A stretch of DNA of 64,000 bases, taken from Actinomycetota bacterium. GTDB lineage: Bacteria > Actinomycetota > Actinomycetes > Mycobacteriales > Micromonosporaceae. The notes below the pieces were generated by a model. That model saw only the letters and a program-made list of their open reading frames with translations. It was not told the origin of the DNA and made no database searches. The DNA is taken from assembly GCA_005885555.1 (NCBI GenBank), contig VAWN01000040.1, forward strand, positions 47,464 through 111,463. The letters run 5' to 3'. The position numbers were made by a program, and so were the translations under genes. Positions 40,858 to 59,530 of the stretch are shown here, piece after piece. The first letter of the stretch is position 1, and each line of letters begins with the position of its first letter.

Positions 40858-40894
40858 AGTGCGGGAGGCGGGCCGGTGGCCCGCCTCCCGCACT
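40858..40894. terminator. Perfect 17-bp hairpin between peroxidase and matB
   Basis: AGTGCGGGAGGCGGGCC, loop GGT, GGCCCGCCTCCCGCACT. It begins 12 bp after the peroxidase stop and ends on the first base of the matB stop codon, so it can end transcription in both directions, including the 14-kb catabolic operon. Confidence 0.8.
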
Positions 40895-42330
40895 TACGGG
40901 GTCAGCTCGTGGCGCAGCACCTTGCCCATCGCGCTTCGGGGTACCGCGTCGATCCAGCGCCATTCCCGCGGCCGCTTGTAGGGGGCCAGCCGCTGGGCAC
41001 ACCACCGCGCGAGATCGTCGGCGTCGAGGTCGCCCGCGGGTACCACGAAGGCCACCACGGTCTCCCCCCACTCCGGTGACGGCGCACCCGCCACCGCCGC
41101 GTCGGCCACCGCCGGGTGCGCCCGCAGGACCTCCTCGACCTCGCGCGGGTACACGTTGTACCCGCCGCTGATGATGAGCTCCTTGGCCCGCCCGGTGATG
41201 CGCAGGTACCCGTCGCCGTCGCGCACGCCGAGGTCGCCGGTGCGGAACCAGCCGTCCCCGGTGAAGGCGGCGGCGTCGGCGTCCGGGCGGTCGAGGTACC
41301 CCTTGATGACATTGGGCCCGGTCACTTCGATCTCGGTGACTCCCCCCTCGCGCGGCGCCAGCCGCAGCGAGACACCGGGCAGCGGGAAGCCCACGGTGCC
41401 CGGGCGCCGCTCCCCCTCGTACGGGTTGGACGTCAGCATCACGGTCTCGGTCATGCCGTAGCGCTCCAGCACCCGCTGCCCGCTGCCGTCCGCGACCGCC
41501 GCGTGCAGGTCCGCCGGCAGCGGCGCCGACCCGCTGACCGCCAGGCGCAGGCCGCGCAGCGCGTCCAGGTGCGGCGAGCCGGCCAGCCGGTGGTACATCG
41601 TCGGTACCCCGAAGAACAGCGTCGCCTGCCGTTCCCGGATCGCCTGCGCCACAACGGCCGGCTCGAACCTCGGCAGGATCAGCGCGGACGCGCCGGTGGT
41701 CAGCGTGCCGTGCAGCCCGACGCCGAGGCCGTGCATGTGGAACAGCGGCAGGCTGAGCACCAGCCGGTCCTCGGCCGTCCAGTGCCAGGCGATGCGTACC
41801 GCGTGCGCCCCGGCGAGCAGGTTGGCGTGGGTCAGCGGCGCGCCCTTGGGCCGCCCGGTGGTACCCGACGTGTAGATGACCAGCGCCACGTCGTTGGGCC
41901 GGCGGGTATCGAGCTGCGTCGTCACCGGCGCCGGAAGCTGGGCCAGATCCGGTGTGGCGCAAGGGATTGCGCTCACCCGCGCCGGGTCGTCGAGCACCGC
42001 GAGCCGCGGCGCCGCCTCGCCGACCAGGTTGGCGACCTCGGCCGGGGTGTAGGCGGTGTTGACCGGTACCACGACGAGGCCGTACCGCAGCGCCGCCACG
42101 TAGGCGATGACGAGGTCGACGCTCGGCGCGGCCGACATGAGTACCCGGTCGCCCGGCGCCAGGCCGGCGGCGGCGTACCGGCCGGCCGCGGTGGCGGTCC
42201 GTTCCGCCAGTTCCGCCGCGGTGACCGTCGCACCGTCCATTGTGGACAGTGTTGGCCGGCCGGGATCGCGCGCCCACGCGGCGGTCCACGCGCCGGGCAG
42301 CGTGCCGCCCGAAGCCAGCTCGCGATTCAT
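40894..42330 (-). CDS. matB: Malonyl-CoA synthetase
   Basis: A 478-residue adenylate-forming enzyme that would join malonate to CoA with ATP. The AMP-binding motif [59 protein letters not shown], the hinge [20 protein letters not shown] and the catalytic Lys in [11 protein letters not shown] match MatB. The TSNPY(D/E)G stretch is specific to malonyl-CoA synthetases as I recall them. The ATG at 42330 overlaps the barbiturase stop (ATGA). It is the last gene of the operon. Malonate is the carbon product of barbiturate breakdown, which is why this gene fixes the pathway reading. Confidence 0.88.
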
Positions 42331-43436
42331 GACCCGAGGTCGACGATCGCGGCCACCGGTCCGCCCCCGTCCGGGCCCTGGTGCGCGGCGGAGACCGAGA
42401 CGAACACCGCCGGGTCGCCGGTCACCGACGCGGCCACCCCGCCGACGCACGCCTTGATCTGCCGGTGCCAGTGCACGTCGGAGTCGTCGAGCATGGCGTT
42501 GCGCCGTCCGCGCACCTGCCCGTCGCTGGACGCCTCGCACTTGAGGAACACGTTGACCAGCCGGCCCTGCAGGTCGCCCGGGTGCGGGCGGGCGGGCAGG
42601 AACAGCCCCGCGTCGCGGATCGCCGCCCAGATCCCGTCGGCGTCCAGCGCGTCGCGCATCACGCTGTGGCCGATGCGGTACCGGCCGCCGACGCCGCGCG
42701 CGTTGCCCACCACCACGATCTGCGCCCGGTCGAGCTCGACGCCGGACGAGCAGGACGCGACCGACGAGTACATCGCCCGGTTGTGCAGCACGTCGGCGTC
42801 GGACGGCGGCTCGATCTCGCCGAGCGCGACGGCGATACCCAGCGCGGTGGTGCCGTTGGACAGGTCCATCGACTCGTGCGTCTGCTCGGTCCACACCGTC
42901 GCGCCCCGGCTCTTCGCCTCGCGGATCGTGTGGATGGTCAGCAGCGGGGTCTTCGTCTGTACATAGTGGACGTCGGCCGGGTCGGTGATGCCGGCTCTGG
43001 CCATCGCCTCGGCGACGCCGGTCGCGACCTTGTCAACCATCGCGCGCCGGCCGATCTCCTCGGGCAGGATCGGCTCGCTCATCGTCACGCCCACGGTCAG
43101 CCGCGGCTCGTCGGTGCGGGCCACGCTGTCCGCCGGTACCGTGGCGAAGACCGTGGCGTGCGGTGACAGCACGCCGTCGGTGCCGCCGGACCAGACGATC
43201 GGGATCCGGGCCACCTCGTCGGGCTTGCGGGACCCCTTGTCCTGCAACACATCCCGGAACGCGCGGTCGGCGATGATGCGGGTGTAGTCGTTCACGCCGC
43301 CGTTGCCCTCGGTCTTGCCGATGACCGCGATCACCCGGTCGGCCTCGACGGTACCGTCGTCGATCAGCGCCGCGAGGCCCGACGCGTCGCTGACATGCTG
43401 GAGCGGTATCTTGCGCACCTCGATGGGCTCGGGCAT
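42327..43436 (-). CDS. Barbiturase / cyanuric acid hydrolase family ring-opening amidohydrolase
   Basis: A 369-residue member of the AtzD/barbiturase fold, which has three similar domains, each giving a Ser-Lys pair. Visible are [75 protein letters not shown] and [18 protein letters not shown]. The two activities cannot be told apart by eye; with a molybdenum hydroxylase and malonyl-CoA synthetase in the same operon, barbiturate hydrolysis to ureidomalonate is by far the better fit. GGAGG lies in the last codons of the kinase gene, and the ATG at 43436 comes 2 nt after that stop. Confidence 0.87.
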
Positions 43437-43438
43437 GG

Positions 43439-44365
43439 TCACCTCCGGGTTACGACCGTACCGGTACCGCCGGCCACGGCGTCGGCGATCCGGTCCAGCG
43501 ATGTGATGACGGCGCGCTCGCCGCCGGCCTCGACGAACCGGCAGGCGGCTTCGACCTTCGGTCCCATGTCGCCGCTGGCGAACTGGCCGTCGGCGGCGTA
43601 CCGGCGCAGCTGCGTCGCGGTTACCGCACCGATCGGGCGGGCGTTGGCGGTACCCCAGTCGAGCGCCGCGGCTTCCACGTCGGTCGCCAGTACCAGCGTC
43701 TGCGCGTTGGTCGTGCCGGCCAGCAGCGCGGCCGCGAGGTCCTTGTCGATGACCGCCTCGACGCCGCGCAGGGTACCGTCGGGTTCGCGGACGACCGGGA
43801 TCCCGCCGCCGCCGGCCGCGACGACGAGGTACCCGGCGGCGAGCAGCGCGCCGACCGCGGGCGCGTCGAGCACCTCCAACGGTTCCGGCGAGGCGACCAC
43901 GCGCCGCCAGCCGCGCGCGCCCCGGTCGTGCCAGACCTGTCCGTGCTCGATCATCAGCTTCGCCTCGTCGGCCGGCAGGTACCGCCCGATCGGCTTGGAC
44001 GGCGTGCGGAACCCGGGATCGGCCGCATCCACGACGGTACGCGTGACGAGTGCGGCGACCGGCCGGCGACCGGCCAGCGCGCGTTCCAGCGCGTTGCACA
44101 GCACGAAGCCGATCGTGCCCTGGGTCTGCGCGCCGCACCAGTCCAGCGGCACCGGCGGTACCACGGCCGCGGCGAGCTCGTTCTTCACCAGCAGGTTGCC
44201 CACCTGCGGCCCGTTCCCGTGCGTGACAAGGACCTCCGCGCCGGTCGCCGCGACCTGCGCGATGCGGCCGGCGGCCCGGCCGAGCGCGGCGATCTGGTCG
44301 GCCGGGGTGGCCCGCCCGTCGGGTGCGGTCATCGCGTTGCCGCCCAGGGCGATGAGGACGATCAC
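43439..44365 (-). CDS. Carbamate kinase
   Basis: A 308-residue amino-acid-kinase-fold enzyme: [62 protein letters not shown] and [17 protein letters not shown]. It makes ATP from carbamoyl phosphate and ADP, releasing ammonia and CO2. No arginine deiminase or catabolic ornithine carbamoyltransferase is nearby, so the carbamoyl phosphate must come from another reaction, most plausibly from the FdrA/YlbE-like pair encoded 12 kb away in the same cluster. GTG 44365 overlaps the hyuB stop (GTGA). Confidence 0.92.
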
Positions 44366-46164
44366 CGCCGGTCCACCTCGGGATAGGGCTTGCCGGCCAG
44401 CAGCCGGTAGCCGAGGCCGCGGTCGAACAGCAGGGGGAGCCGGGCCTTCCGCCGCGCCCGCACCGCCTCGGTGGCGTCCCGGTCGCCGAGGACGACGCCG
44501 TAGTCCTCCCGGGCGCCGGTCCGGGACACCTTGCCCCACCGCACGTCCCGCACGACCTCGTCGTACGGCCGGTCCAGCGGGTCGCCCCAGCCGCCGCCTC
44601 CGGTGGTGCGGATCCGGATCACCTCGCCGGCCCGCACCGGCTCGGCGTCGGCGAGCGCGTCGACGGTGCGCTCGTTGGGCCCGCCCGGGTCGACCACCAC
44701 GCTGAACGGCTGGCCGGCCCGGCCGCCCTTGAGGCCCCAGCAGGCCAGTCTCGACCGGTCGGCGATGGACATGAAGTACCCGTCGCGCAGCATCCGGAGG
44801 TGCTTGTCGTACCCGAGCCCGCCGCGGTACCGCCCCGGGCCGCCCGAGTCGACCGCGAGGCCCAGCCGTTCCACCACGAACGGCCAGCGGGACTCGGCGA
44901 ACTCCACCGGGATGTTGCGCGAGTCCGGAACGATGTGCACGGTGTCCTCGCCGTCGGCGTAGGGCCGGCCGCCGGAGCCGCCGCCGAGCACCTCGCGCAT
45001 CAGGTACGGCTGGCCCTCGGCGTCGGTGCCGTACACCCCGGTGTACCGGATGGTCTCCTGGTCGGCCGGCATCCGACCGTCGACGGCCTTGGCCAGTACC
45101 CCGGCGAAGACCCCGAGCAGCCGCAGGATGACGAACGTGCGCGCGTTGGTCGGCGCCGGGAACACCGGTGTCAGCAGCGTCCCCGGCGGCGGGAACCGCA
45201 GTTCCAGCAACGGCACCACGCCCTCGTTGACGTCCAGCTCGGCCATCCGCTCCGGGGTGTCGGCGAGGTTGCGCAGGATCGGCGCGAGCCACTTGGCGAG
45301 GAAGTTCCCGTCGGCGTAGTTGCCGGCGTGGTTGATCGGGCCGCGCGCCTGCGGCGAGGTACCGGTGAAGTCCAGTACCAGCTTGTCCGGCGTCTTGGTC
45401 AGCGTGATGCGCTGGGTGTGCAGCCGCGGCGGGTCGACGCCGTCGTGTTCGGCGTAGTCCTCCCAGACGTAGCTGCCGTCCGGGATCTTCGCGAGGATCT
45501 CGGTGCGGAACGCCTTCGTCGTGTTGTCCAGGATCGCGTCGAAGCAACCCTCCACAGTGGACCGTCCATAGCGGACGAACAGCTCGGCCAGCCGGCCGGC
45601 GCCCATCAGGCAGGCGGAGCACTCGGCGTCCAGGTCGGCGGCGAGCGACTCGGGCATCCGCGAGTTGCGGGTCATTATCTTCAGCGCCGCCTCGTTCGGG
45701 ACACCCTTGTCCCACAAGCGGATCGGGGGGACCATCAGGCCCTCCTCGAAGACGCTGGTCGCGGTCGAGGGCATCGATCCGGGTACCGCGCCGCCGATGT
45801 CGTCATGGTGGCCGAACGCCTGCACGAAGGCCACCACGTCGCCGTCGTGGAACACCGGGACCGTCACGCACAGGTCGGGCAGGTGGCCGATGCCGCCTTC
45901 GGAACGGTACACGTCGTTGTGGAAGAACACGTCGCCGGGCCGCATCGTCGACAGTGGATAGTCGCGGACGACGGGATGCACCAGGGCGGAGTACGACCGG
46001 CCGGTCAGCTTTCGTAGCCTGCGGTCGTGGATGCCGGCGCGGAAGTCGTGCGCGTCACGGATCATCGGCGACCGCGCGGTGCGGCCGATCGCGGTCTCCA
46101 CCTCGCGCTCGATCGAGGCGAGCGTGCCGCTGACGATCTCCACCAGAATCGGGTCAGCCGTCAC
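44362..46164 (-). CDS. Hydantoinase/oxoprolinase B-type subunit
   Basis: A 600-residue HyuB-family subunit: [20 protein letters not shown] at the start, [39 protein letters not shown] and, near the end, [20 protein letters not shown]. With HyuA it forms an ATP-dependent amide- or lactam-opening enzyme. In this operon candidates are ureidomalonate, malonamate or a ring compound, and I cannot choose. The GTG start at 46164 overlaps the hyuA stop by 11 bp. Confidence 0.87.
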
Positions 46165-48202
46165 GGGTCACCACCAGGTTGCCCAGGTCGTCGACGCGGG
46201 CGGTGAAGCCGGGATGCAGCGGTACCGTCGAGCCGTACTCCTCGACGACCGCCGGCCCGGTCAGCACCTCGCCGGGCGCGAGCGACGGCCGGTCGTAGAT
46301 CGCAGTGTCCACAAAGGACCCGTCGAAGAGAACGGGCCGGCTGCCCGCGGGCGCAGCCGCCGGCCCGGCCCGGCCGTGGCCCGACGGCAGCGGGCGCAAC
46401 GGCGGGCTCGCGATCGGGCCGATCCCGCTCACCCGCAGGTTCACCCATTCGACCTCCTGCTCCGGCCGGTCCCGGAAGCAGTACCCGTAGAGGCGCTCGT
46501 GCGCGTCGTGGAACAGTGCCACGGTCGCGTCCGGATCGCCGCCGGCCGGTACCGGTACCTCGAAGGCCTGCCCCCGGTACCGCAGGTCGGCGGTGCGGAC
46601 GAACCGCTGCCGGGCCGGTGCGAAGCCCTCCGCGGACAGCGCGGCCGCGGCCCGCCCGGTCAGCTCGGTGAAGAGACGCTCGACGACGTCGCGGTCCACC
46701 GATGCGTGCCGCGCCACGTACGTCTGCACGTAGTCGTTCTTCACGTCGACGGTCAACAGCCCGAACGCGGACAGGTTGCCGGGATCGCGCGGTACCAGCA
46801 CGGCGGGCAGGTCGAGGATGTCGGCCAGCCGGCACGCCAGCAGCGAACCGGAGCCGCCGAACGTGGTGAGCACGAAGTCGCGCACGTCCAGGCCGCGCTT
46901 GACGGTGACCTGCCGCAGCGCGTTGGCCTGGTTCCACGCGGAGATCTCCAGGATGCCGGCGGCGAGCTTCTCGGTGGGCAGGCCCAGTTTCTCGCCCAAT
47001 GCGGCGAGGCCCTCGCGGGCCGCGGCCACGTCGAGCGGTACCTCGCCGCCGAGCAGGTGCGCCGGAATCCGGCCGAGCACCAGGTGGGCGTCGGTGACGG
47101 TCGGCTCGATGCCGCCACGGCGGTAGCACAGCGGGCCGGGATCGGCGCCGGCCGAGCGGGGGCCGACGCGGAGGGTACCGTCCCGGGTCAGCGACGCGAC
47201 CGATCCGCCACCGGCGCCGACGGTCACGATGTCGATCATCGGGATCTTCGACGGGTACCCGCCGACGGAGCCCTCGGTGGTCAGCGTCGGCTGGCCGTGC
47301 AGCACCACGCTGACGTCCGTCGAGGTACCCCCGCCGTCGAGGGTGAGCACCTTGTCGAAGCCGGCCGTCTGCGCCACGAGCGCGGCGCCCAGCGCCCCGG
47401 CCGCCGGGCCGGACAGCACCGTGGTGATGGGCTGGTGGACCACCTCCTCGGCGGACACCACGCCGCCGTTGGACTTCATGATGAGGAACGGCACCGGCCC
47501 GGCGTACCCGGACAGGCGCCGCCGGATCGTTGCCACGTAACGGGAAACGCGCGGCTTGACCGCGGCGTCGATGAGCGTGGTCATCGCCCGCTCGTACTCG
47601 CGGTACTCACGCAGCACCTCGCTGGACAGCGACACCACGGCAGCCGGGTGCTCGGCGGCGAGGATGTCGCGCATCCGCTGCTCGCGCGCGGGGTTGGCGT
47701 AGGCGTGCAGGAAGCACACGCCGACCGCGTCGATCCCGTTGTCCCGGAAGAACCGGGCCGCCTCGCGGGCGGCGTCGTCGTCGAACGGGCGCAGTTGCGC
47801 GCCGGTGTGGTCGAGCCGGCCGGGCACGGTACGCACGAGGTCGGCGGGCACGATGCGGGGCGGCTTGACCCAGAAGTAGCTGTTGCCGTAGCCGTCCGGC
47901 ACGCTCTGCCGGGCGATCTCCAGCAGGAACTCGAATCCCTCGGTCGTGATGAAGCCGAGCCGCTCGATCCGGCCCTCCAGCAGCTGGTTGGTCGCCACCG
48001 TCGTGCCGTGGCTCACCGACGTCACGTCAGCCGGGGTACCGTCCATTGTGGACAGTACCTTGTGGACACCGGTCATGAAGCCCTCGGCCGGGTCGGCCGG
48101 TGTCGACGGCGTCTTGGTGGTCACGATCGCGCCGCTGTCCTCGTCGACGGCCACCACGTCGGTGAACGTACCGCCGGTGTCGACCCCGATGCGGATCCTC
48201 AT
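46154..48202 (-). CDS. Hydantoinase/oxoprolinase A-type subunit (ATPase)
   Basis: A 682-residue HyuA-family subunit with an actin-like ATPase core: IRIGVDTGGTFTDVVAVD (phosphate 1), SVSHGTTVATNQLLEG, VLTLDGGGTSTDVSVV (phosphate 2) and VTVGAGGGSVASL. It activates an amide with ATP for hydrolysis together with HyuB. The ATG at 48202 overlaps the stop of the nitrilase-like gene (ATGA). It contains a GTCCATTGTGGAC word (48041-48053) coding STMD. Carbamate kinase could regenerate the ATP it uses. Confidence 0.88.
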   Translation of the reverse strand: MRIRIGVDTGGTFTDVVAVDEDSGAIVTTKTPSTPADPAEGFMTGVHKVLSTMDGTPADVTSVSHGTTVATNQLLEGRIERLGFITTEGFEFLLEIARQSVPDGYGNSYFWVKPPRIVPADLVRTVPGRLDHTGAQLRPFDDDAAREAARFFRDNGIDAVGVCFLHAYANPAREQRMRDILAAEHPAAVVSLSSEVLREYREYERAMTTLIDAAVKPRVSRYVATIRRRLSGYAGPVPFLIMKSNGGVVSAEEVVHQPITTVLSGPAAGALGAALVAQTAGFDKVLTLDGGGTSTDVSVVLHGQPTLTTEGSVGGYPSKIPMIDIVTVGAGGGSVASLTRDGTLRVGPRSAGADPGPLCYRRGGIEPTVTDAHLVLGRIPAHLLGGEVPLDVAAAREGLAALGEKLGLPTEKLAAGILEISAWNQANALRQVTVKRGLDVRDFVLTTFGGSGSLLACRLADILDLPAVLVPRDPGNLSAFGLLTVDVKNDYVQTYVARHASVDRDVVERLFTELTGRAAAALSAEGFAPARQRFVRTADLRYRGQAFEVPVPAGGDPDATVALFHDAHERLYGYCFRDRPEQEVEWVNLRVSGIGPIASPPLRPLPSGHGRAGPAAAPAGSRPVLFDGSFVDTAIYDRPSLAPGEVLTGPAVVEEYGSTVPLHPGFTARVDDLGNLVVTRDG

Positions 48203-49086
48203 CGGGCGTGCGGGAAGCTCGTGGCCGCCGGGCGGCGCAGCTCGTCCAGATGGTGCCCGATCAGCGCGAGGTTGCGCTCGGCGAGGTGGTCGAACCGTTG
48301 CGGCACACTGGAACCCGGTGTCAGGCTCGCCATCGCGGTGGCGGGGTCGAGGCGGGCGGTGACCCAGCCGGCGTGCGAGGCGCCGCGCGCGACGACATCC
48401 GCGATCGGTGTGACGATCATCGAGTTGCCGAAGTAGATGACCCCGGCCGGGTCGGTACCGGTGGCGTTCGCGGCCACCACGAACACGTGGTTGTCGTAGG
48501 CCCGGGCCCGGTTGGTCAGCTCCCAGATGTCGGCCGACCGCAGCAGCGCCGACGGCCGGCAGATCACCTCGGCGCCGAGTACCGCCTCGATCCGGGCCAG
48601 CTCCGGGTAGTCGCCGTCGAAGCAGATCATCAGGCCCAGCTTGGCCAGCGGGGTGTCCACCACGACGGCACGCTCCCCGGCGACCACCCAGTCCTCACCG
48701 CAGAACAGGTGCGTCTTGCGGTACCGGCTGAGCACGCCGCCGTCCGGCCCGACAACGGCGGCGGTGTTGTACACGGTGCCCCGCTGCGGTCCGCGCTCGT
48801 AGGTGCCGAAGACGACGTGTACCCCGAGCCGCCGGGCCGCCTCCTGAACCGGTTCGGTGACCGGCCCGGGTACCTCGCTCACCAGGTCCCACAAGGCTTC
48901 CGGCGACACGCCCGGGGTGAAGCCGGTGCTGGCCGCCTCGGGCAGCACGAGCAGCTCGGCCCCGGTCGCGTCGACGCAGCGGTCGATGAGGTCGACGCAC
49001 GTGTCGAGGTTGGCCTTGACCGACGCGGGGGTCAGCGGGCCGGGTGCGGGCGGTACCTGGACGGCGGCGGCGACGAACGGCAGCAT
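48199..49086 (-). CDS. Carbon-nitrogen hydrolase (nitrilase superfamily amidase)
   Basis: A 295-residue amidohydrolase with a Glu-Lys-Cys triad: LPEAAS (Glu50), YRKTHLF (Lys124) and GLMICFDGDYPE (Cys155). FGNSMIV and ANATGTD are common family segments. It would hydrolyse a linear amide, N-carbamoyl compound or omega-amide. In the operon, malonamate or ureidomalonate is a reasonable substrate, but beta-ureidopropionase-like activity cannot be excluded. ATG 49086 is chosen; an in-frame GTG directly precedes it. It is coupled to hyuA by an ATGA overlap. Confidence 0.85.
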   Translation of the reverse strand: MLPFVAAAVQVPPAPGPLTPASVKANLDTCVDLIDRCVDATGAELLVLPEAASTGFTPGVSPEALWDLVSEVPGPVTEPVQEAARRLGVHVVFGTYERGPQRGTVYNTAAVVGPDGGVLSRYRKTHLFCGEDWVVAGERAVVVDTPLAKLGLMICFDGDYPELARIEAVLGAEVICRPSALLRSADIWELTNRARAYDNHVFVVAANATGTDPAGVIYFGNSMIVTPIADVVARGASHAGWVTARLDPATAMASLTPGSSVPQRFDHLAERNLALIGHHLDELRRPAATSFPHAR

Positions 49087-49092
49087 CACCCC

Positions 49093-49713
49093 TCACCGCC
49101 GGACCGCGGAGCTTGTCGGAGCGGCGGCCCCCACCCGGCGCCCGATGAGCGCGCCGACGACGACACCGAGCAGCGCGGCGGCCGCCCCGAACGCCACGCC
49201 GCGGGCGAAGTCACCACGCACCCGGGGCGGCGCAGGGGGCCGCTCGAACACCTCCCCGGCCGGCGCTTCGACCGCACCGGTCAGCACGTCGTCGACGGCG
49301 GCGAAGAACTCGTTCGCGGTCTTCTTCGCCACGCCGGCCAGGATCCGCTGCCCCACGCCGCCGACCGGGCCACCGACGACGGCGTCGGCGTCGTAGGTCA
49401 GCACCGTGCTGCCGTCCCCGCCGTCGGCGAGTCGCACCGTCACCACGGCCGAGACGGTACCCGGGGCACCCGACCCGGCGGCCTTGAGCAGAAAGGCATG
49501 CGGCGCCTCGACGTCGGTAAGGAGCACCTCGCCGGCGTAAGTGCCCTTGATGGCCGCCACCCCGGCGGTGACCGCCATCCGGTACGCGTCCGGCCCGACC
49601 TGTTCCAGCCGTTCGCAGCCGGGGATCGTGCGGACCAGTACCCCCGGGTCGTGCAGCGCCGCGTAGACCTTGTCCACCGGTGCGTGCAGCGTCGCCTCAC
49701 CGCCGACCTTCAC
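49093..49713 (-). CDS. coxG: CoxG-family protein
   Basis: A 206-residue SRPBCC-fold protein of the CoxG type (GGEATLHAPVDKVYAALHDP, RTIPGCERLE) with a C-terminal membrane helix (VAFGAAAALLGVVVGALIG). In carbon-monoxide dehydrogenase systems CoxG recruits or anchors the molybdenum enzyme at the membrane. Here it should tether the hydroxylase encoded by the next three genes. GTG 49713 overlaps the 3' end of the large-subunit gene by 17 bp. Confidence 0.85.
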   Translation of the reverse strand: MKVGGEATLHAPVDKVYAALHDPGVLVRTIPGCERLEQVGPDAYRMAVTAGVAAIKGTYAGEVLLTDVEAPHAFLLKAAGSGAPGTVSAVVTVRLADGGDGSTVLTYDADAVVGGPVGGVGQRILAGVAKKTANEFFAAVDDVLTGAVEAPAGEVFERPPAPPRVRGDFARGVAFGAAAALLGVVVGALIGRRVGAAAPTSSAVRR

Positions 49714-52072: not shown

Positions 52073-52545
52073 GCTTCGCCCCGTTGGATGGCGGCGGCGC
52101 GCAGGACGGAGGCCACGATGTTCTGGTACCCCGTGCACCGGCACAGGTTCCCGCCGATCGCCTCGCGCGCCTGCTCCTCCGTCGGGTCGGGGTGGTCCCG
52201 CAGGTATGCGGTGACGGTCGTGATGAACCCCGGGGTGCAGTACCCGCACTGCAGGCCGTGGCACTCGTGGAACGCGCGCTGCACCGGGCCCAGGCCGCCG
52301 TCCGGCGCGCGGCAACCCTCCACAGTGGTCAGTTGCGCGCCGTCGACGCTGACCGCGAACAGCAGGCACGAGCGCACCGGCTCGCCGTCCAGCAGCACCG
52401 TGCAGGCGCCGCAGACGCCGTGCTCGCAGCCGACGTGGGTACCGGTGCAGCCGAGGTCGTGGCGCAGGAAGTCGGACAGCAGCCGGCGGGCCGGCACGGT
52501 CGCGCTGCGCAGCACCCCGTTGACGGTCACGCTCACCTCATGCAT
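52069..52545 (-). CDS. Molybdenum hydroxylase [2Fe-2S] small subunit
   Basis: A 158-residue electron-transfer subunit with two [2Fe-2S] clusters: a plant-type ferredoxin motif CEHGVCGACTVLLDG (preceded by GCTGTHVG) and, in the C-terminal helical domain, LQCGYCTPGFI and NLCRCTGYQNIV. It passes electrons from the molybdenum centre to the FAD subunit. It overlaps the medium subunit gene by 8 bp and the large subunit gene by 4 bp (ATGA). Confidence 0.92.
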   Translation of the reverse strand: MHEVSVTVNGVLRSATVPARRLLSDFLRHDLGCTGTHVGCEHGVCGACTVLLDGEPVRSCLLFAVSVDGAQLTTVEGCRAPDGGLGPVQRAFHECHGLQCGYCTPGFITTVTAYLRDHPDPTEEQAREAIGGNLCRCTGYQNIVASVLRAAAIQRGEA

Positions 52546-53398
52546 TGGCCACCGCCGCCTTTCCGGCCCGCGCGGTCAGCACCGCGACGAGGTGCCGCCG
52601 GTACGCCGCGGTCGCGTGGATGTCGTCCTCCGGCCGCACGCGCGCCGCGGCCAGCGCGCCCGCCGCGGCCCAGTCGGCCGTGTCGGCGGGAAGTCCCGCC
52701 ACCGCCTCCGCGAGGTCCACCGTCAGCGGGGTCGGCCCGACCGACACGTAGGCCGCGCGGGCGGCGGCGACGCGCCGGTCGGCGGACAGCGTCACGAGCA
52801 CGCCGACACCGCACACCGCGAAGTCGCCGCGCCGCCGCGACACCTCCAGCCACGCGGTGCCACTGCCCTTCGGGGGTACCGGAAAAAGCGCTTCCACGGC
52901 AAGCTCACCCGGCCGCAGCGCCGACTCCAGTGGGCCGACGAAGAACTCGCCCGCCGGTACCGTGCGCCGGCCCGACGCCGAGGCGAGCGTCACCGAACCG
53001 GACAGCAGGCTCAGCACGGCCGGAAGCTCCGCGGCCGGGTCCGCGTGTACGAGGCTGCCCACCGTGGTACCCCTGTTGCGGATCGCCGGGTGCGCGACGT
53101 GCCCGGTCGCCTGGCGCAACAACGGAAGCGCGGCGAATGCCGCGGCGTCCCGCTCGACGGCGGCGTGCCGCGCGAGCGCGCCCACCCGGACCACCCCGGC
53201 GTCGACCGTGACGTGCGCCAGCTCGCCGAGCCGGTTGATGTCGACCAGGTGCCCGGGCGCGGCCAGCCGCATGTTGAGTACCGGCACCAGGCTCTGGCCG
53301 CCGGCCAGTACCTTGCCGTCGGGGCCGGTCTCGGCGAGGACGGCGAGCGCGTCGGCGACCGAGGCCGGCCGGTGGTAGGTGAAGGCCGGCGGCTTCAT
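52538..53398 (-). CDS. Molybdenum hydroxylase FAD-binding medium subunit
   Basis: A 286-residue FAD subunit: PPAFTYHRPASVADALAVL at the start, KVLAGGQSLVPVLNMRLAAP (FAD binding), RNRGTTVGSLVHADPAAELP (FAD binding) and a C-terminal helical domain. It is the outlet for electrons from the hydroxylase, presumably to NAD or a quinone. It lies 6 bp downstream of the permease stop, first of the three structural genes. Confidence 0.92.
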   Translation of the reverse strand: MKPPAFTYHRPASVADALAVLAETGPDGKVLAGGQSLVPVLNMRLAAPGHLVDINRLGELAHVTVDAGVVRVGALARHAAVERDAAAFAALPLLRQATGHVAHPAIRNRGTTVGSLVHADPAAELPAVLSLLSGSVTLASASGRRTVPAGEFFVGPLESALRPGELAVEALFPVPPKGSGTAWLEVSRRRGDFAVCGVGVLVTLSADRRVAAARAAYVSVGPTPLTVDLAEAVAGLPADTADWAAAGALAAARVRPEDDIHATAAYRRHLVAVLTARAGKAAVANA

Positions 53399-53404
53399 CG
53401 GCGG

Positions 53405-54865
53405 TCAGGTCCGGTCCGGAGCCGACTCCTCGTAGGCGGCCGATTCGTCGTAGGCGCCGGGCGCGTCGACGACCACGACGGCGCCCTCGCCCCGTTGCTG
53501 TTCCCGCAGGTGCGGCGGTGCGATCGCACGCGCCACATGGTACGTCCCGATCGTCACGATCGTGCCCAGAGCGATGCCGGACAGGGCGAAGTTCTTGGCG
53601 ATGGTCAGCGTGGTGTTGCCGATCGCGAGGATGATGCCGGCGGCGACGGGTACCAGGTTGATGGGGTTGCCGAAGTCGACCCCGTTCTCCTTCCAGATCT
53701 TCGCGCCGAGCAGGCCGATCATGCCGTACAGCACGACGGTGATCCCGCCGAGCACGCCGCCCGGCGTGGCCTGCACCAGCGCGCCGAACTTCGGCAGCAG
53801 GCCGAAGCCGATCGCGACGATCGCGGCGACGTAGTACGCCGCCGTGGAGTAGATCCGGGTGGCCGCCATGACGCCGATGTTCTCCGCGTAGGTGGTGGTG
53901 GGCGAGCCGCCGACCGCGCTGGCCAGGGCCGTGCCGAAGCCGTCGGCCGCGATCGCCCGGCCCATCGACGGGTCCAGGTCGGTGCGGGTCATCTCGGCGA
54001 CCGCCTTCACGTGCCCGGTGTTCTCCGCGATCAGCGCGATCACGGCCGGCAGGACGAGCAGGATGAACACCGCGTTGAGGTGCGGCAGGTGCCAGCCGGG
54101 GATCTCCTTGCCGTCCGGTCCGATGCTGGTGTGCGGCGGGAACCCGAACCAGCCCGCCGACTTCACCCCGGCCCAGTTGACCCGGTCGTGCAGGGTCACC
54201 TTGCCGGCGACCGGGTCGTACGAGTTGATCTTCCCGAACACGAGGTCGAAGATCCACGACAGCAGGTACCCGAAGATGAGCCCGAGGAACACCGCGATCC
54301 GGCCCAGGAACCCGCGGAACCCCAGCGCCATCGCCATCACGGCGAGCATGGTCAGCAGGGCGACCCACTGGTCCTGCGGCCAGTAGATGTTGGCCACCAC
54401 CGGCGCCAGGTTGAACCCGATCAGCATGACCACCGCGCCGGTCACCACCGGCGGCAGCACCGCGTGCAGCACCCGGGAACCGGCGAAGTGGATGCCCACC
54501 CCGCAGGCCAGCAGCACCAGGCCGGCGATCAGGATCGCCCCGGTGACGTCCGGCGAGGTGCCACCCTGCGCCCGGATGGCGACCACGCCGCCGACGAACG
54601 AGGCCGAGGTACCCAGGTAGCTGGGCACCCGGCCCTGCACGATCAGCAGGAAGCAGATCGTCGCGATGCCGCTCATCATGATGGCCAGCTGCGGGTTGAG
54701 CCCCATGACGATCGGGAAGACGAAGGTCGCCCCGAACATCGCGACCACGTGCTGCGCACCCAGGCCGATCGTGCGCGGCCAGGAGAGCCTTTCGTCCGGG
54801 CGGACCACCTCGCCCGGCGGCGGCGTCTTCCCGTCGTGGACGACCCGCCAACCCAACAAAGTCAT
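53405..54865 (-). CDS. Uracil-type NCS2 permease
   Basis: A 486-residue transporter with about 14 membrane segments. LGAQHVVAMFGATFVFPIVMG and GGSPTTTYAENIGVMAATRIYS are the UraA-type signatures (the glutamate in AENIG binds the pyrimidine). Xanthine/urate members usually differ in the NIG-signature surroundings, so uracil or thymine import fits best. The C-terminus has a short acidic tail. I chose ATG 54865; the upstream in-frame TTG (54895) has no support. It is the first gene of the catabolic operon, and the 223 bp before it must hold the promoter. Confidence 0.87.
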   Translation of the reverse strand: MTLLGWRVVHDGKTPPPGEVVRPDERLSWPRTIGLGAQHVVAMFGATFVFPIVMGLNPQLAIMMSGIATICFLLIVQGRVPSYLGTSASFVGGVVAIRAQGGTSPDVTGAILIAGLVLLACGVGIHFAGSRVLHAVLPPVVTGAVVMLIGFNLAPVVANIYWPQDQWVALLTMLAVMAMALGFRGFLGRIAVFLGLIFGYLLSWIFDLVFGKINSYDPVAGKVTLHDRVNWAGVKSAGWFGFPPHTSIGPDGKEIPGWHLPHLNAVFILLVLPAVIALIAENTGHVKAVAEMTRTDLDPSMGRAIAADGFGTALASAVGGSPTTTYAENIGVMAATRIYSTAAYYVAAIVAIGFGLLPKFGALVQATPGGVLGGITVVLYGMIGLLGAKIWKENGVDFGNPINLVPVAAGIILAIGNTTLTIAKNFALSGIALGTIVTIGTYHVARAIAPPHLREQQRGEGAVVVVDAPGAYDESAAYEESAPDRT

Positions 54866-55066: not shown

Positions 55067-55088
55067 GACGGGCCGGGGCCGCACGGGT

Positions 55089-56732
55089 TCAGACCGCGGC
55101 GAAGTCCAGGACGCGCAGGGCGACGGCCACGTCGAGGCGGCGGGACGGGTCGGTGGTGAACGGGCCGACCATGCGTTCCAGCTTGCCGATCCGGTACCGC
55201 AGCGTGTTGTAGTGGAAGTGCAGCCGCCGGGCCGCCTCGGCGACGTTGCAGTTGGTGTCCAGCAACACCTGCAGCGTGTGCCGCAGGTCGGCGCACCCGG
55301 CATCCTCGCCGGCCAGCTCCCCCAGCACATCGTCGGCGTACCCGCGCAGCTCCCCCGCGTCCGGGATCAGCGCGATCAGCCGGTGCACGCCGAGGGAGTC
55401 GAAGCTGGCCCGCGCGCCGTCGCCGGACAGCCGCCGGCCGATGCGGATCGCGGTGCGCGCCTGCTCGTACGCGGCCGGCAGCGCGGCCGGCCCGGTCGCC
55501 ACCCGCGACACGCCGAGGGAGAACGGACCCTCGGTCTTCACCAGGCGGTCCAGCTCGGCCACCAGCCGGGCCGGGTCGCCGTCCGCCGGCACGCCGAGCA
55601 GGGTCACCACCTCCTGGTGGAAGCTGACCACCGGGGCGCGCGGGTCACGCGAGCGCACCGCCGCCTCCCAGGCGGTCGCGAACCGCTCCCGGCCCGGCCG
55701 GGGGTCGTAGCCCGGCCGGGGGTCGTAGCCCGGCCGGGGGTCGTAGCCGGGCCGGGGGTCGTAGCCGGGCCGGGGGTCGTGGCCCGGCCGCGGGTCGTGG
55801 CCGCCGGGCCGGTCCAGCTCCGCGACGACCGCGACCAGCGGGCGGTCCAGCTCCCAGCCGAAGGACCGGGCGTAGGCGACCGCCGCGGGTACCTCGTCGA
55901 CCCGGCCGGTCAGCAGGTCGCGCAGGAAGTCGGCGCGGTACTTGCCCTCCACCGCCGCGACCGCGAGCTGTTTGGTGATCGCGAGCGCGGCCACCGTCGC
56001 CGCCCGCTCCAGGCCGTGCACATCGGCGTCGGTCAGGGGTACCGGCGGGAAGGCCACGATCCGGCCGTGGTCGACCTGGCCGGCGACGATGGGTACCACC
56101 GTCCGGTTCGGCAGGGCGGCCGCGTCCCCGGCCCGGGCCAGCACCCGGCCGTCCGGCGTGGTGATGTGCACCGGCCCGGCGAGGATCCGGGCCAGCTCCG
56201 CGGCGAGGTCGGTCAGGTCGCCGCCGGCCAGCACCACCGAGACCAGCGCCCGGTGTACCTCCTCGCTGCGCGCCAGTACCGCGGCCTGCCGGTTGAGCAG
56301 CTCGCTGAGCACCTCGTTGAGCACGTCGTCGAAACCGACCCCGGCGGGGAACTCGATGATCGGGAAGCCGCGCCGGTCCGCCTCGGCGAGCATCTGCGGG
56401 GGTACCGCGTCCAGGTACCGGTGCAGCTTGATGGCCAGCGCGGCGAGGCCCCGGGCATCGAGCTCGGCGACCAGGTCGACCAGCGCGCCGGGGTCGTCGC
56501 GCAGCGGGTACCCGGTGGTGAGCAGCAGCTCGTGCGGCTTCACCCAGGGCAGGATGTCGGGTACCTCCATGACGTTGAGTCGCCGGACGATCCGGTCCAG
56601 CCCGCTCGCCCCGGCCAGCACCCGGGCACCGGCCAGGGTCGCCGCGCCGAGCACCTCCCGTACCCGCAACCCGAGCGCGGGTTCGGCGCAGCCCGCCGAA
56701 GAATCGCCGGGCGCCTTGGCAACATCCTCCAT
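55089..56732 (-). CDS. PucR-family transcriptional regulator with internal DPRPG repeats
   Basis: A 547-residue regulator. The N-terminal PucR domain (about 20-150: LGLRVREVLGAATLAGARVL, then WVKPHELLLTTGYPLRDDP) may sense a purine/pyrimidine-type ligand. A middle GGDEF-like region follows, and the C-terminus carries the helix-turn-helix (TLQVLLDTNCNVAEAARRLH, then FHYNTLRYRIGKLE). Residues about 311-346 are six (H/Y)DPRPG units inserted in the middle domain and absent from relatives I know. The gene is divergent from the fdrA-like gene with 36 bp between starts, and the permease gene follows it downstream, so it is the likely regulator of both arms. The start ATG lies 6 nt from TATGGT. Confidence 0.88.
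   Translation of the reverse strand: MEDVAKAPGDSSAGCAEPALGLRVREVLGAATLAGARVLAGASGLDRIVRRLNVMEVPDILPWVKPHELLLTTGYPLRDDPGALVDLVAELDARGLAALAIKLHRYLDAVPPQMLAEADRRGFPIIEFPAGVGFDDVLNEVLSELLNRQAAVLARSEEVHRALVSVVLAGGDLTDLAAELARILAGPVHITTPDGRVLARAGDAAALPNRTVVPIVAGQVDHGRIVAFPPVPLTDADVHGLERAATVAALAITKQLAVAAVEGKYRADFLRDLLTGRVDEVPAAVAYARSFGWELDRPLVAVVAELDRPGGHDPRPGHDPRPGYDPRPGYDPRPGYDPRPGYDPRPGRERFATAWEAAVRSRDPRAPVVSFHQEVVTLLGVPADGDPARLVAELDRLVKTEGPFSLGVSRVATGPAALPAAYEQARTAIRIGRRLSGDGARASFDSLGVHRLIALIPDAGELRGYADDVLGELAGEDAGCADLRHTLQVLLDTNCNVAEAARRLHFHYNTLRYRIGKLERMVGPFTTDPSRRLDVAVALRVLDFAAV
55694..55801 (-). repeat. Six 18-bp tandem repeats inside the regulator gene
   Basis: Six consecutive 18-bp units with few differences (minus-strand unit encodes YDPRPG or HDPRPG). 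The four inner units are almost identical; the two nearest the 5' end of the gene read H in place of Y. It is in frame and so can expand or shrink without breaking the gene. Confidence 0.92.
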
Positions 56733-56738
56733 CTCGAC

Positions 56739-56744
56739 ACCATA
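56739..56744 (-). promoter_or_regulatory. -10 box of the leaderless pucR-like gene
   Basis: On the minus strand: TATGGT, 6 nt (GTCGAG), ATG at 56732. Confidence 0.55.
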
Positions 56745-56754
56745 GTCCGGCGCT

Positions 56755-56768
56755 TACCGTCTGAAGAC
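56755..56768 (+). promoter_or_regulatory. Start-proximal promoter and small palindrome of the fdrA-like gene
   Basis: TACCGT (56755-56760) and GTCTGAAGAC (56759-56768, 4-bp arms) directly precede the GTG at 56769. The whole bidirectional control region is 36 bp, so RNA polymerase binding for the two directions must overlap. Confidence 0.45.
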
Positions 56769-58151
56769 GTGCAGCGGCATCTGGAGATCCGGACGGGGGT
56801 CTACCGGGACTCAGTCCAGCTGATGCAGGTCAGCCAGGCGGTACGGGACCGGCCCGGGGTATCCGCCGCGCTCGTCGCCATGGCGACGGGGCTCAACCTG
56901 GAGCTGGCCGCGGGGCTCGGGTTCGCCGCGCCGCCGGGCGCCCGGCCGGAGGACCTGCTGGTCGCCATCGCGGCCGGCGACGGGGCGGCACTGGCCGGCG
57001 CGCTCTCCGCGGTGGACGCCGCGCTGGCGCCCGGTCCCGCGCCGGCCGGCGGCCCGGCCGATGTTCCGCCCCGCTCCGTCGGGTCGGCCGTCCGCCGTGC
57101 CGGGGCGGACCTGGTGCTCGTCTCGACGCCGGGCCGGTACGCGGTGCTCGACGCGTTCGACGCGCTCGACGCGGGCGCCTCGGTGCTGCTGTTCTCCGAC
57201 AACGTCTCGGTGGCTGACGAGGTGCGGCTCAAGGACCGGGCCGCCGCGCGCGGGCTGCTGGTGATGGGACCGGACTGCGGTACCGCGGTCGTCGGCGGGG
57301 TCGGCCTCGGCTTCGCCAACGTGGTCCGGCCGGGGCCGGTCGGGTTGGTCGCCGCGTCGGGTACCGGTGCGCAGCAGGTCATGTGCCTGCTCGACGCGGC
57401 CGGCGTGGGCATCTCGCACTGTCTGGGCGTGGGCGGGCGGGACCTGTCCGCCGCGGTGGCCGGGCGGTCCACGCTCGCCGCGCTGGACGTGCTGGACGCC
57501 GACCCGGCCACCGAGCTGATCGTGGTGGTGTCCAAGCCGCCCGCGCCCGAGGTCGCCGCGCGGGTCACCGGGCACGCGCGGCGGTTGCGCACGCCGGTGC
57601 GCTTCGCGTTGCTCGGGCCGGGGCGTCCCGACCTGACCGCCGTGGTCGAGGCGCTCGGTTATCCGGTACCCACGACCTGGCCGGCCTGGCAGCCGACCGC
57701 GGCCCCGGCGCCGCGGCGGGGTTCGTTGCGGGGCCTGTTCGCCGGCGGCACCCTGTGTGCGGAGGCGGCCCTGATCGCCGACGCGGAGCTGGGCCCGGAC
57801 CCGGGCCGGCAGATGATCGACTTCGGGGCCGACGAGCTGACCCGGGGCCGGCCGCACCCGATGATCGACGGCACGCTCCGCCTGGAAGCCCTGGCAGCGC
57901 AGGTGACCGATCCGGCGTGCGGTGCGGTACTGCTCGATGTCGTGCTCGGGCACGCCGCGGACCCGGACCCGGCCGCGGCGCTGGCACCCGCGATCGCCGC
58001 GGCCGGCCGGCCGGTCGTGGTGTCGGTGACCGGCACGGCGGCCGACCCGCAGGGTCTGGCGCGGCAGGCGCAGGCGTTGTGCGACGCGGGCGCGGCGGTG
58101 TTCCTGTCCAACGCGCAGGCGGCCCGGTTCGCGGCGGGGCTGGTGCGATGA
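56769..58151 (+). CDS. FdrA-like acyl-CoA synthetase-fold protein (oxamate carbamoyltransferase component)
   Basis: A 460-residue FdrA-family protein. It begins LEIRTGVYRDSVQLMQVSQA, followed by a CoA-ligase-like fold: DAGASVLLFSDNVSVADEV, LLVMGPDCGTAVVGGVGLGFAN, LVAASGTGAQQVMCLLD and GISHCLGVGGRDLS. The C-terminal half has GLFAGGTLCAEAALI and MIDFGADELTRGRPHPMIDG. In enterobacteria FdrA with YlbE and YlbF converts oxalurate and phosphate to oxamate and carbamoyl phosphate. Ureidomalonate is oxalurate with one extra methylene, so this protein may do the same to it. GTG 56769 is the first start in the family-like region. It is coupled to the next gene (ATGA). Confidence 0.83.
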   Translation: MQRHLEIRTGVYRDSVQLMQVSQAVRDRPGVSAALVAMATGLNLELAAGLGFAAPPGARPEDLLVAIAAGDGAALAGALSAVDAALAPGPAPAGGPADVPPRSVGSAVRRAGADLVLVSTPGRYAVLDAFDALDAGASVLLFSDNVSVADEVRLKDRAAARGLLVMGPDCGTAVVGGVGLGFANVVRPGPVGLVAASGTGAQQVMCLLDAAGVGISHCLGVGGRDLSAAVAGRSTLAALDVLDADPATELIVVVSKPPAPEVAARVTGHARRLRTPVRFALLGPGRPDLTAVVEALGYPVPTTWPAWQPTAAPAPRRGSLRGLFAGGTLCAEAALIADAELGPDPGRQMIDFGADELTRGRPHPMIDGTLRLEALAAQVTDPACGAVLLDVVLGHAADPDPAAALAPAIAAAGRPVVVSVTGTAADPQGLARQAQALCDAGAAVFLSNAQAARFAAGLVR

Positions 58152-59530
58152 ACCTGAACCCGACGCTCGTCACGGCCGGAGTCGCCCGGTTCGCGGATTC
58201 GCTTGCGCAGCAAGGGATTGCGCACACCGCCGTCGAGTGGCAGCCGCCGCCGGACGGGTCGGTCGACGCGCTGTCGACGGTACTGGCCGATCCGCGGCGG
58301 GCGGGCGCGAACGCCGAGGCGGCTGCGCGGATGCTCGCCGCGGGGGCGCGGCTGGTCGACGTGCGGCCGGCGCGCGAGGTCGTCGGACTGGAACCCGGCC
58401 GGTTCTGCCACGCCGGCCCGCCGGTGACGTGGGAGCGGGCGTCCGGCCCGCTGCGCGGCGCGCTGACCGGGGCGGTCCTGCTGGAGGGGCTGGCGTCCGA
58501 CCCGCCCGGCGCCGAGCGGCTTCTCGCCGGCGGCCGTGTCGAGTGGGTGCCGTGCCACCGCCTCGGCGGCGTCGGGCCGATGGCCGGCGTGGTGTCCCCG
58601 TCGATGTGGGTGTGGGTACTGCACGACGAGGTGCACGACCGGACCAGCTGGTGCACGCTGAACGAGGGGCTGGGCGCGGTGCTGCGGTACGGCGCCTACG
58701 CGCCCGAGGTAATCGACCGGCTTCGCTGGATGGGTGCCGTGCTCGGACCGGCCTTGCAGGCGGCCGTCCGGCGGCACGGGCCGGTCGACGTCAAGGCGCT
58801 CGTCGGGCAGATGCTGACCATGGGCGACGAGGGGCACAACCGCAACCGCGCCGGTACCCTCATGCTGCTGCGCGACCTGCTGCCCGACCTGGTCGAGTCC
58901 GGGCTGCCGTCGGCCGATGTCGCGCGGGTGGCCCGGTTCATCGGCGGCAACGACCACTTCTTCCTCAACCTGGTGATGCCCTGCGCGAAGCTCCAGGCGG
59001 CCGCGGCGTCAGGTATCGCGGGTTCGACGGTGGTCACCGCGATGGCGCGCAACGGCACCGACTTCGGCATCCAGGTCGCCGGTACCGGCGACGCGTGGTT
59101 CACCGGCCCCGCCGCGGTACCGGACGGGCTGTTCCTCGGCGGGTACGGGCCGGACGACGCCAACCCGGACATCGGTGACTCGGCCATCACGGAAACCGCG
59201 GGGCTGGGCGGGTTCGCCATGGCCGGTGCGCCGGCGATCGTGCGGTTCGTCGGCGGTACCGTGTCCGACGCGCTGCGTACCACGCGGGAGATGTACGAGA
59301 TCACGGTGGCGGAGAACCCCGCGTACCCGTTGCCGGTGCTCGACTTCCGCGGCGCGCCGACCGGCATCGACGCCGCCCTGGTGCTGCGTACCGGGATCCG
59401 GCCGCAGATCAACACCGGGATCGCGGGGCGGGTCGCCGGTACCGGTCAGGTCGGGGCGGGGCTGGTGAACCCGCCGCTGGAGTGCTTCGTGGCGGCGGTG
59501 GCGGCGCTCGCCGACGCGGTGCCGCAGTAG
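58148..59530 (+). CDS. YlbE-like DUF1116 protein (oxamate carbamoyltransferase component)
   Basis: A 460-residue DUF1116 protein, partner of FdrA. Recognisable pieces are LVDVRPAREVVGLEPGRFCHAG, WVPCHRLGGVGPMAGVVSPS, MLTMGDEGHNRNRAGTLM, RFIGGNDHFFLNLVMPCAK and FGIQVAGTGDAWFTGPA. The conserved His/Asn in DEGHNRN and GGNDHFFLN suggest a substrate site. The third enterobacterial component, YlbF (DUF2877), is not in the window, so either two proteins suffice here or it lies elsewhere. A GC-rich hairpin and the second GATCTTGGA palindrome follow the stop. Confidence 0.83.
   Translation: MNLNPTLVTAGVARFADSLAQQGIAHTAVEWQPPPDGSVDALSTVLADPRRAGANAEAAARMLAAGARLVDVRPAREVVGLEPGRFCHAGPPVTWERASGPLRGALTGAVLLEGLASDPPGAERLLAGGRVEWVPCHRLGGVGPMAGVVSPSMWVWVLHDEVHDRTSWCTLNEGLGAVLRYGAYAPEVIDRLRWMGAVLGPALQAAVRRHGPVDVKALVGQMLTMGDEGHNRNRAGTLMLLRDLLPDLVESGLPSADVARVARFIGGNDHFFLNLVMPCAKLQAAAASGIAGSTVVTAMARNGTDFGIQVAGTGDAWFTGPAAVPDGLFLGGYGPDDANPDIGDSAITETAGLGGFAMAGAPAIVRFVGGTVSDALRTTREMYEITVAENPAYPLPVLDFRGAPTGIDAALVLRTGIRPQINTGIAGRVAGTGQVGAGLVNPPLECFVAAVAALADAVPQ

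Follow-up and report, generated by a model that had tools for sequence, protein, structure and literature searches.

A barbiturase, AllF-AllG and carbamate kinase cluster in Actinomycetota that looks like an undescribed variant of oxidative pyrimidine degradation

Oxidative pyrimidine degradation by uracil/thymine dehydrogenase, barbiturase and ureidomalonase has reportedly been studied in Rhodococcus, and the urea-forming pathway is said to have been worked out in R. erythropolis. To our knowledge, barbiturase is the only enzyme of this route with an assigned gene. Here, a divergent cluster of 18.6 kb (40894-59530) is described from a genome of the Micromonosporaceae (assembly GCA_005885555.1, contig VAWN01000040.1); positions refer to the 64,000-nucleotide stretch of this contig that was analysed, which is called the window. 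The cluster encodes a barbiturase-type enzyme, a molybdenum hydroxylase, a carbamate kinase and the proteins AllF (FdrA) and AllG (YlbE), and it looks like a variant, not previously described, of the known oxidative pathway. The urea-forming version of that pathway is published (PMC3758960, excerpted text).

In the locus of R. erythropolis NBRC 15567, barbiturase, an amidase (PF01425) and an aminotransferase come together, and then the permease and the hydroxylase. This locus resembles the window in its barbiturase (83% identity), permease, molybdenum hydroxylase, CoxG and HyuA. AllF-AllG, carbamate kinase, MatB and an amidase of the nitrilase type set the window apart; the 21 kb of the R. erythropolis locus, the part of that genome that was searched, gave no match to AllFG or carbamate kinase. 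Unlike the window, R. erythropolis has an amidase-signature enzyme beside barbiturase, as well as a class III CoA transferase and a carboxyl transferase, which are encoded with a PucR protein divergently from barbiturase (L199, 4340-9061).

A second system for comparison is the oxamate carbamoyltransferase of E. coli, which requires AllF, AllG and AllH (PMC11326118, excerpted text). E. coli AllFGH with AllK and the window proteins have a common logic, leading from an acylurea via carbamoyl phosphate to ATP, and the identities to the E. coli counterparts are 38% for AllF, 44% for AllG and 41% for carbamate kinase (AllK). However, E. coli AllFGH sits with allantoin genes and window AllFG with barbiturase, no AllH was found in the window genome, window AllG belongs to a separate clade with Gly for His, and the window substrate would be one carbon longer. 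In nitrifiers, allFGHK lies beside biuH and trtA, likewise outside a full purine pathway; barbiturase, present in the window locus, is not mentioned in the main text of that paper (PMC12625717). Lastly, cyanuric acid catabolism (AtzD/TrzD with biuret and allophanate hydrolases) employs a ring-opening enzyme of the same family as the window's. Unlike this system, the window has barbiturase-type residues, and the Pfam scan of the operon proteins gave one CN_hydrolase and no PF01425 or Isochorismatase match.

As the preliminary description of this DNA had held, the cluster very likely serves oxidative pyrimidine degradation. Barbiturase identity with its specificity residues, operon structure and co-occurrence are the parts best supported by sequence; the other substrates and the order of the steps we infer. 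The AtzD-family protein of the window matches PDB 5hwe, deposited as barbiturase, at E 1.9e-204, whereas the cyanuric acid hydrolases in the PDB match far less well (best 4.4e-96). Peat et al. name five positions that distinguish barbiturase from cyanuric acid hydrolase (PMC3758960, excerpted text). At all five, the window protein has the barbiturase residue (N194, H324, K328, V348, S349), in line with the group VI signature (Asn, His, Lys, Val, Ser/Ala), and the cyanuric acid hydrolase signature at the same positions (Arg, Thr, Arg, Gly, Gly) is absent from it. Of the 137 AtzD-family rows compared, 129, window included, show N-H-K-V, and their fifth position is Ser (92), Ala (27) or Gly (10). 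N-H-K-V is thus common to the window and all 128 rows that are at least 60% identical to its protein; the remaining eight, all at 30-43% identity, lack it. These residues, together with 83.4% identity to the counterpart in R. erythropolis NBRC 15567, support barbiturate as the opened ring. The NCBIfam model NF052395 (cyanuric acid amidohydrolase) scores above its cut-off for the window protein, but the specificity residues argue against this name.

Several other AtzD genes were rejected as barbiturases for lack of the group VI signature, namely those of f50 (L081, L082), f2/g4 (L077, L143, L144), L080, L141 and L142. The AtzD protein of L081 (5677-13547) has the group V-like signature N-GGG and lies beside a molybdenum hydroxylase, an amidase and a MatB-like gene; the one group V enzyme assayed was inactive on either ring (PMC3758960, excerpted text). 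In L077, L143 and L144, an AtzD protein with the cyanuric-acid-hydrolase residues RTRGG adjoins a permease and an isochorismatase-type hydrolase.

The eleven minus-strand genes of the window very probably form one operon, since the intergenic gaps range from -17 to +6 bp and seven of the ten junctions overlap in the boundary analysis. Their order is UraA, FAD subunit, 2Fe-2S subunit, molybdenum subunit, CoxG, CN_hydrolase, HyuA, HyuB, carbamate kinase, barbiturase and MatB. Directly upstream, the minus strand also carries the PucR gene; AllF and AllG, whose genes overlap by 4 bp, are transcribed divergently from the opposite strand. The earlier inventory and coordinates of the cluster hold, as a profile scan of the window proteins gave strong Pfam matches for all named genes within 40894-59530 (Table 1).

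Two genome samples, 396 from the phylum and 397 from the order, were searched with the barbiturase family (PF09663) and AllG (PF06545). Both families occur in 22 genomes of the phylum sample (barbiturase family in 27, AllG in 49; Fisher p 4e-18) and in 94 of the order sample (104 and 110, respectively; p 1e-61), with p values uncorrected for relatedness and with genomes that carry AtzD genes outside group VI still among the counts, as are the barbiturase-family fragments of G407, G477, G515 and G535, counted without a reading of the signature. The two genes lie within 30 kb of each other in 69 of the 94 double-positive genomes (median 6.8 kb), farther apart on the same contig in 10 and on different contigs in 15. 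Linkage within 30 kb, in rearranged gene order, is found in families f5, f16, f33, f39, f47, f76, f77, f83, f88 and f89 besides the window's own. In both samples, barbiturase-family genes and AllG thus occur together far above chance, mostly as neighbours.

The six best solved relatives of the window kinase are carbamate kinases (1e19 at 1.4e-74), and a second carbamate kinase, 47% identical, is encoded elsewhere in the host genome (G000:C148:51109-52002). For 80 of the 104 barbiturase-family genomes, a match at E <=1e-75 was scored as carbamate kinase, with the edge-truncated AllG of G483 taken as present and the other-type AllG of G614 as absent. Kinase and AllG are both present in 66 of these genomes, kinase only in 2, AllG only in 3 and neither in 9 (p 5e-8); once the four genomes whose family member does not show the group VI signature are dropped, the counts are 66/2/3/5 (p 6e-5). 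The cluster recurs in many Actinomycetota genomes and is not unique to the window genome. The idea that the gene set is without parallel therefore stands only for the literature: neither the cluster nor ureidomalonate phosphorolysis is described in the titles, abstracts and term counts of the open-licence literature searched, which by itself does not prove novelty.

The AllG proteins of these clusters are distinct. A maximum-likelihood tree of 66 rows places 36 of them, all from genomes with barbiturase of group VI, in one clade (100/95) together with two rows from genomes in which none of this group was detected. E. coli AllG and 27 other rows fall outside, among them the AllG of G614, whose AtzD gene is not of group VI. 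Rows had to match over 330 residues and be free of stops, with one copy per genome, so that shorter, truncated or stop-containing matches and second copies (e.g., of G386, G455, G496, G509 and G593) are left out. Gly427 of window AllG corresponds to His385 of E. coli in the column of the conserved NTGIA motif. Glycine is found here in 37 of the 38 clade rows (the 38th ends before the column), and it recurs in nine rows of a remote AllG paralogue group; the nearest sister rows have histidine, as does E. coli AllG. The glycine would suit a more spacious pocket that takes a longer substrate, the location of this residue in the active site being conjectural. In AllF, only three conservative changes separate both groups. 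The AllG model was predicted with a predicted local distance difference test score of 92.6; its best solved match and only solved fold relative, the uncharacterised protein 3clq, gave no mechanism. Together with co-occurrence, the joint absence of AllG and kinase from clusters that carry an amidase and the lack of an AllD-family match in the host, the separate clade supports the earlier proposal that FdrA/YlbE acts on ureidomalonate and feeds carbamate kinase, and judged from these patterns such a phosphorolytic step by AllFG is quite probable.

Two variants of the pathway seem to exist and to stand in for one another, a hydrolytic one with ureidomalonase and urea, and the one predicted for the window, which would be phosphorolytic, with AllFG, carbamoyl phosphate and ATP. 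Four well-assembled genomes with a barbiturase of group VI (G562, G605 and G775 from one genus, and G607) have neither AllG nor carbamate kinase, and by tblastn similarity their loci carry an amidase-signature enzyme. The barbiturase-adjacent amidase of R. erythropolis is the best candidate for ureidomalonase, because the urea-forming route is reportedly that of this organism and its locus gave no match to AllFG or the kinase. Among 97 loci with both flanks known, carbamate kinase is missing in 6 of the 8 with a barbiturase-adjacent amidase versus 13 of the 89 without one (p 6e-4).

Since AllFG would yield malonamate, the phosphorolytic variant would need a second amidase. The catalytic triad of the nitrilase superfamily is Glu-Lys-Cys, and the nitrilase-type amidase encoded between CoxG and HyuA in the window has PEA at residue 50, RKTHLF at 124 and ICFD at 155, fitting this triad. 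Between CoxG and HyuA, 18 distinct barbiturase loci carry a nitrilase-type or amidase-signature gene, and 17 of them have carbamate kinase; of 14 loci in which this slot is empty, 4 have the kinase and 10 do not (p 1e-4). For this table duplicates were removed (L167 = L261), absence of the kinase means none on the stretch, and loci with barbiturase off the stretch or another gene in the slot (L132, L270) are left out. A hand count of AllG-positive genomes with a readable slot gave 11 of 15 filled (G000, G410, G465, G627, G009, G308, G024, G226, G118, G085, G455) and four empty (G279, G529, G514, G432); the slot is filled in none of the four genomes without AllG named above. The extra amidase of the preliminary description thus tracks carbamate kinase (17 of 18 filled slots), but several AllFG clusters have no amidase at this position.

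For uracil/thymine dehydrogenase, the obvious candidate is the three-subunit molybdenum hydroxylase. The molybdenum subunit of this enzyme scores higher with quinoline 2-oxidoreductase (459.7 bits) than with CO dehydrogenases (397.1 and lower). The active-site motif of form I CoxL is AYxCSFR, with a cysteine; this cysteine is absent from the window subunit, which reads PYRGAGR (YRGAGR at residue 361) and has GAGEAG at residue 747. The NCBIfam model CODH_aero_grp5 (NF040766) gives 1495.8 bits for the window subunit and 1401.3 bits for the molybdenum protein of the R. erythropolis barbiturase locus (L199, 17359-19881). Of 126 distinct group VI loci, 43 include a relative with at least 60% identity on their stretch, many of the stretches being too short to extend that far. 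The gene neighbourhood argues for the CODH_aero_grp5 proteins of these clusters being N-heterocycle hydroxylases rather than CO dehydrogenases.

The last operon gene is in keeping with malonyl-CoA as the proposed end point. The five best solved relatives of its product are malonyl-CoA synthetases or chimeras of one, and NCBIfam malonyl-CoA synthase is its best model, at 462.9 bits and below the cut-off of 558. MatB is also present in L068, with more than 50% identity. A predicted activation of the acid with CoA is recurrent, as a class III CoA transferase lies on the stretch in 51 of the 126 distinct group VI loci; in R. erythropolis, the CoA transferase and the carboxyl transferase perhaps lead from malonate via malonyl-CoA to acetyl-CoA. 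HyuAB lies within the operon and is present in both variants. Proteins of the HyuA family are ATP-dependent enzymes, and a candidate role suggested for HyuAB is the opening of a ring that barbiturase cannot open, e.g., 5-methylbarbiturate from thymine.

In the proposed pathway, UraA would import uracil, which the molybdenum hydroxylase would convert to barbiturate, and barbiturase would open this ring to give ureidomalonate (3-oxo-3-ureidopropanoate). AllF-AllG would cleave ureidomalonate with phosphate to malonamate and carbamoyl phosphate, as the one-carbon-longer analogue of oxalurate cleavage in E. coli. Carbamate kinase would then form ATP, CO2 and ammonia from carbamoyl phosphate and ADP, the nitrilase-type amidase would release malonate and ammonia from malonamate, and MatB would activate malonate to malonyl-CoA. 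PucR is the probable regulator, and HyuAB would be a conserved ring-amide enzyme, perhaps the second ring opener for a methylated substrate. Taken as a whole, the cluster is likely to serve aerobic oxidative catabolism of uracil, and perhaps thymine, in an energy-conserving AllFG variant.

An alternative is that the pathway is the published one (PMC3758960, excerpted text), with the nitrilase-type amidase or HyuAB making malonate and urea, and with AllFG and the kinase nearby by chance, acting on another ureide or on oxalurate. N-carbamoyl hydrolases do occur in the nitrilase superfamily, and AllFG is divergently transcribed and without AllH. However, chance does not sit well with the AllG-barbiturase co-occurrence and linkage across many families, with the separate AllG clade, or with a carbamate kinase that is encoded in the operon next to barbiturase and absent in the four well-assembled genomes without AllG. 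Moreover, the host draft genome (99.98% complete) has no match to the AllD family (Ldh_2, PF02615) and none to urease alpha (urea carboxylase and allophanate hydrolase were outside this search). Without an AllD-type ureidoglycolate dehydrogenase, the host therefore has no known oxalurate source, although absence of this family is common and not decisive (18 of 60 genomes searched have a match and 42 have none). The lack of both families fits a pathway not ending in urea, without proving it. Urease is found in 52 of 78 genomes, three matches being weak and partial (G490, G496, G509). Among eight kinase-free genomes with the group VI signature, seven have urease and G607 does not, and kinase-positive genomes are mixed, so urease as the reason for two variants is only suggestive. 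On this evidence, a urea-forming route in the window is unlikely.

It is improbable, too, that the cluster produces a different acylurea from some other ring substrate, be it a substituted pyrimidine, a hydantoin or a triazine. We know of no substrates for group-5 hydroxylases, HyuAB is part of the operon, and barbiturase is absent from the stretches of L087 (7029-20000), L088 (177-14272) and L084, which have the hydroxylase, HyuAB and AllF-AllG, joined by AllH in L087 and L088. The AllG proteins of such sister clusters are sister sequences of the group VI clade in the tree. Against another ring speak the N-H-K-V residues in the window and 128 further rows, the missing cyanuric acid hydrolase signature, the RutG/UraA-type permease and the malonyl-CoA synthetase end point. 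In L078 (7158-11697), L079 (8050-12583) and L089 (5170-10919), an isochorismatase-type hydrolase occurs with AllF-AllG and carbamate kinase, and no match to the barbiturase family was found in these three genomes; possibly these clusters represent another acylurea route.

Several findings, to which the sister clusters without barbiturase and the uncorrected p values belong, weigh against an energy-conserving role of AllFG in the window. Firstly, no AllH/YlbF was found in the host draft genome, and a profile of 19 AllH sequences from near AllF detected no diverged AllH in the window; as a control it recovered the AllH of L172 at 7e-49, L172 itself being among the 19 training rows. A plus-strand reading frame after AllG (59796-60398) was rejected as AllH, since it has no Pfam match and seems to begin with a signal peptide. 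In a set of 80 genomes, 27 of the 33 AllG-positive genomes outside f89 have AllH at most 5 kb from AllG, and in the closest AllG relative (G401/L172) it is retained, lying between the AllF and PucR genes. In Pseudonocardia acaciae DSM 45401 (L200), AllF, AllG and AllH are all encoded near barbiturase. Secondly, AllG occurs without carbamate kinase in G441, G466 and G633, and the kinase without AllG in G477 and G535, both incomplete genomes; half or fewer of the links are clean. Thirdly, a barbiturase-adjacent amidase is accompanied by carbamate kinase in L132 and L198, both are missing from 13 of the 97 scored loci, and all six loci that show AllF, AllG or AllH on the stretch (L068, L139, L167, L168, L224, L267) are among those with an empty slot; a second amidase, if needed there, must therefore lie elsewhere. 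Lastly, G607 lacks urease as well as AllG and kinase, and the role of HyuAB is unexplained by the proposed route.

The missing AllH and its retention in the closest relative could mean that AllFG is a decaying remnant beside a working oxidative pathway, but this has little likelihood, as the AllF and AllG frames are open with a third-position GC content of 0.93, the kinase and the slot amidase are kept, and in family f89, AllFG is retained with no AllH nearby in 35 of the 36 AllG genomes sampled, though these have an unlinked PF11392 gene. This unlinked AllH gene may have another job, because it is also present in the three f89 genomes without AllG.

Table 1. Genes of the divergent cluster, with positions in the window.
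Gene product	Position	Strand	Evidence
UraA/RutG-type NCS2 nucleobase permease, first operon gene	53405..54865	-	Pfam Xan_ur_permease 1.4e-73; NCBIfam best match RutG, below cut-off
FAD subunit of molybdenum hydroxylase	52538..53398	-	FAD_binding_5 8.1e-43, CO_deh_flav_C 3.1e-16
2Fe-2S subunit of molybdenum hydroxylase	52069..52545	-	Fer2_2 1.5e-29, Fer2 1.1e-07
Molybdenum subunit of hydroxylase	49697..52072	-	MoCoBD_1/2; quinoline 2-oxidoreductase as best solved relative; NCBIfam model CODH_aero_grp5
CoxG-like maturation or membrane factor of hydroxylase	49093..49713	-	COXG 3.6e-22
Nitrilase-superfamily amidase, candidate malonamate amidase	48199..49089	-	CN_hydrolase 9.4e-50
HyuA (hydantoinase/oxoprolinase/caprolactamase family)	46154..48202	-	Hydantoinase_A 2.3e-87; NCBIfam best match caprolactamase alpha, far below cut-off
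HyuB, partner of HyuA	44362..46164	-	Hydantoinase_B 3.1e-141
Carbamate kinase	43439..44365	-	AA_kinase; NCBIfam carbamate kinase models; PDB 1e19 1.4e-74
Barbiturase (AtzD/Bar family, group VI)	42327..43436	-	PDB 5hwe E 1.9e-204; specificity residues
MatB-like malonyl-CoA synthetase, last operon gene	40894..42330	-	AMP-binding; PDB and NCBIfam best matches
PucR-family regulator	55089..56732	-	PucR 3.3e-35, HTH_30 6.4e-20
AllF (FdrA), subunit of proposed ureidomalonate:phosphate carbamoyltransferase	56769..58151	+	Ligase_CoA 1.6e-24; PDB 3dmy FdrA 6.4e-63
AllG (YlbE), subunit of proposed ureidomalonate:phosphate carbamoyltransferase	58148..59530	+	AllG 4.6e-92

The window has a GC content of 73%. 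There is no start codon at 56745, and the probable start of AllF is the GTG at 56769. The PucR protein contains a run of heptapeptide-like repeats (GHDPRP/GYDPRP) within a GGDEF-like region. One boundary of the cluster is marked by an animal-type haem peroxidase gene (38648-40846), convergent with the operon end, and the other by cobalamin biosynthesis genes (CbiX, CbiC, TP_methylase, CbiG_C; about 60381-64000). Elsewhere in the window, 16366-18714 encodes a SecA-like protein of 782 amino acids, possibly an accessory SecA2.

The broader interpretation, which is slightly favoured, is that of an old and widespread variant in Actinomycetota. Here, a dedicated AllF-AllG(-AllH) would phosphorolyse ureidomalonate, replacing ureidomalonase and making urease dispensable, the CODH_aero_grp5 enzyme would be the uracil dehydrogenase, and the change from His to Gly in AllG would mark the shift away from oxalurate towards the longer substrate. 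The neighbourhood offers candidate genes for uracil/thymine dehydrogenase and ureidomalonase, enzymes that were described long ago, and the proposed carbamoyltransferase activity would be new and have a residue marker. If the assignment of the hydroxylase is right, part of the annotation of CO oxidisers based on NF040766 would be wrong, and genome-based estimates of CO oxidation would be affected. For the organisms themselves, it would mean that one carbamoyl group of the pyrimidine is kept as carbamoyl phosphate and used for ATP formation, rather than being lost as urea.

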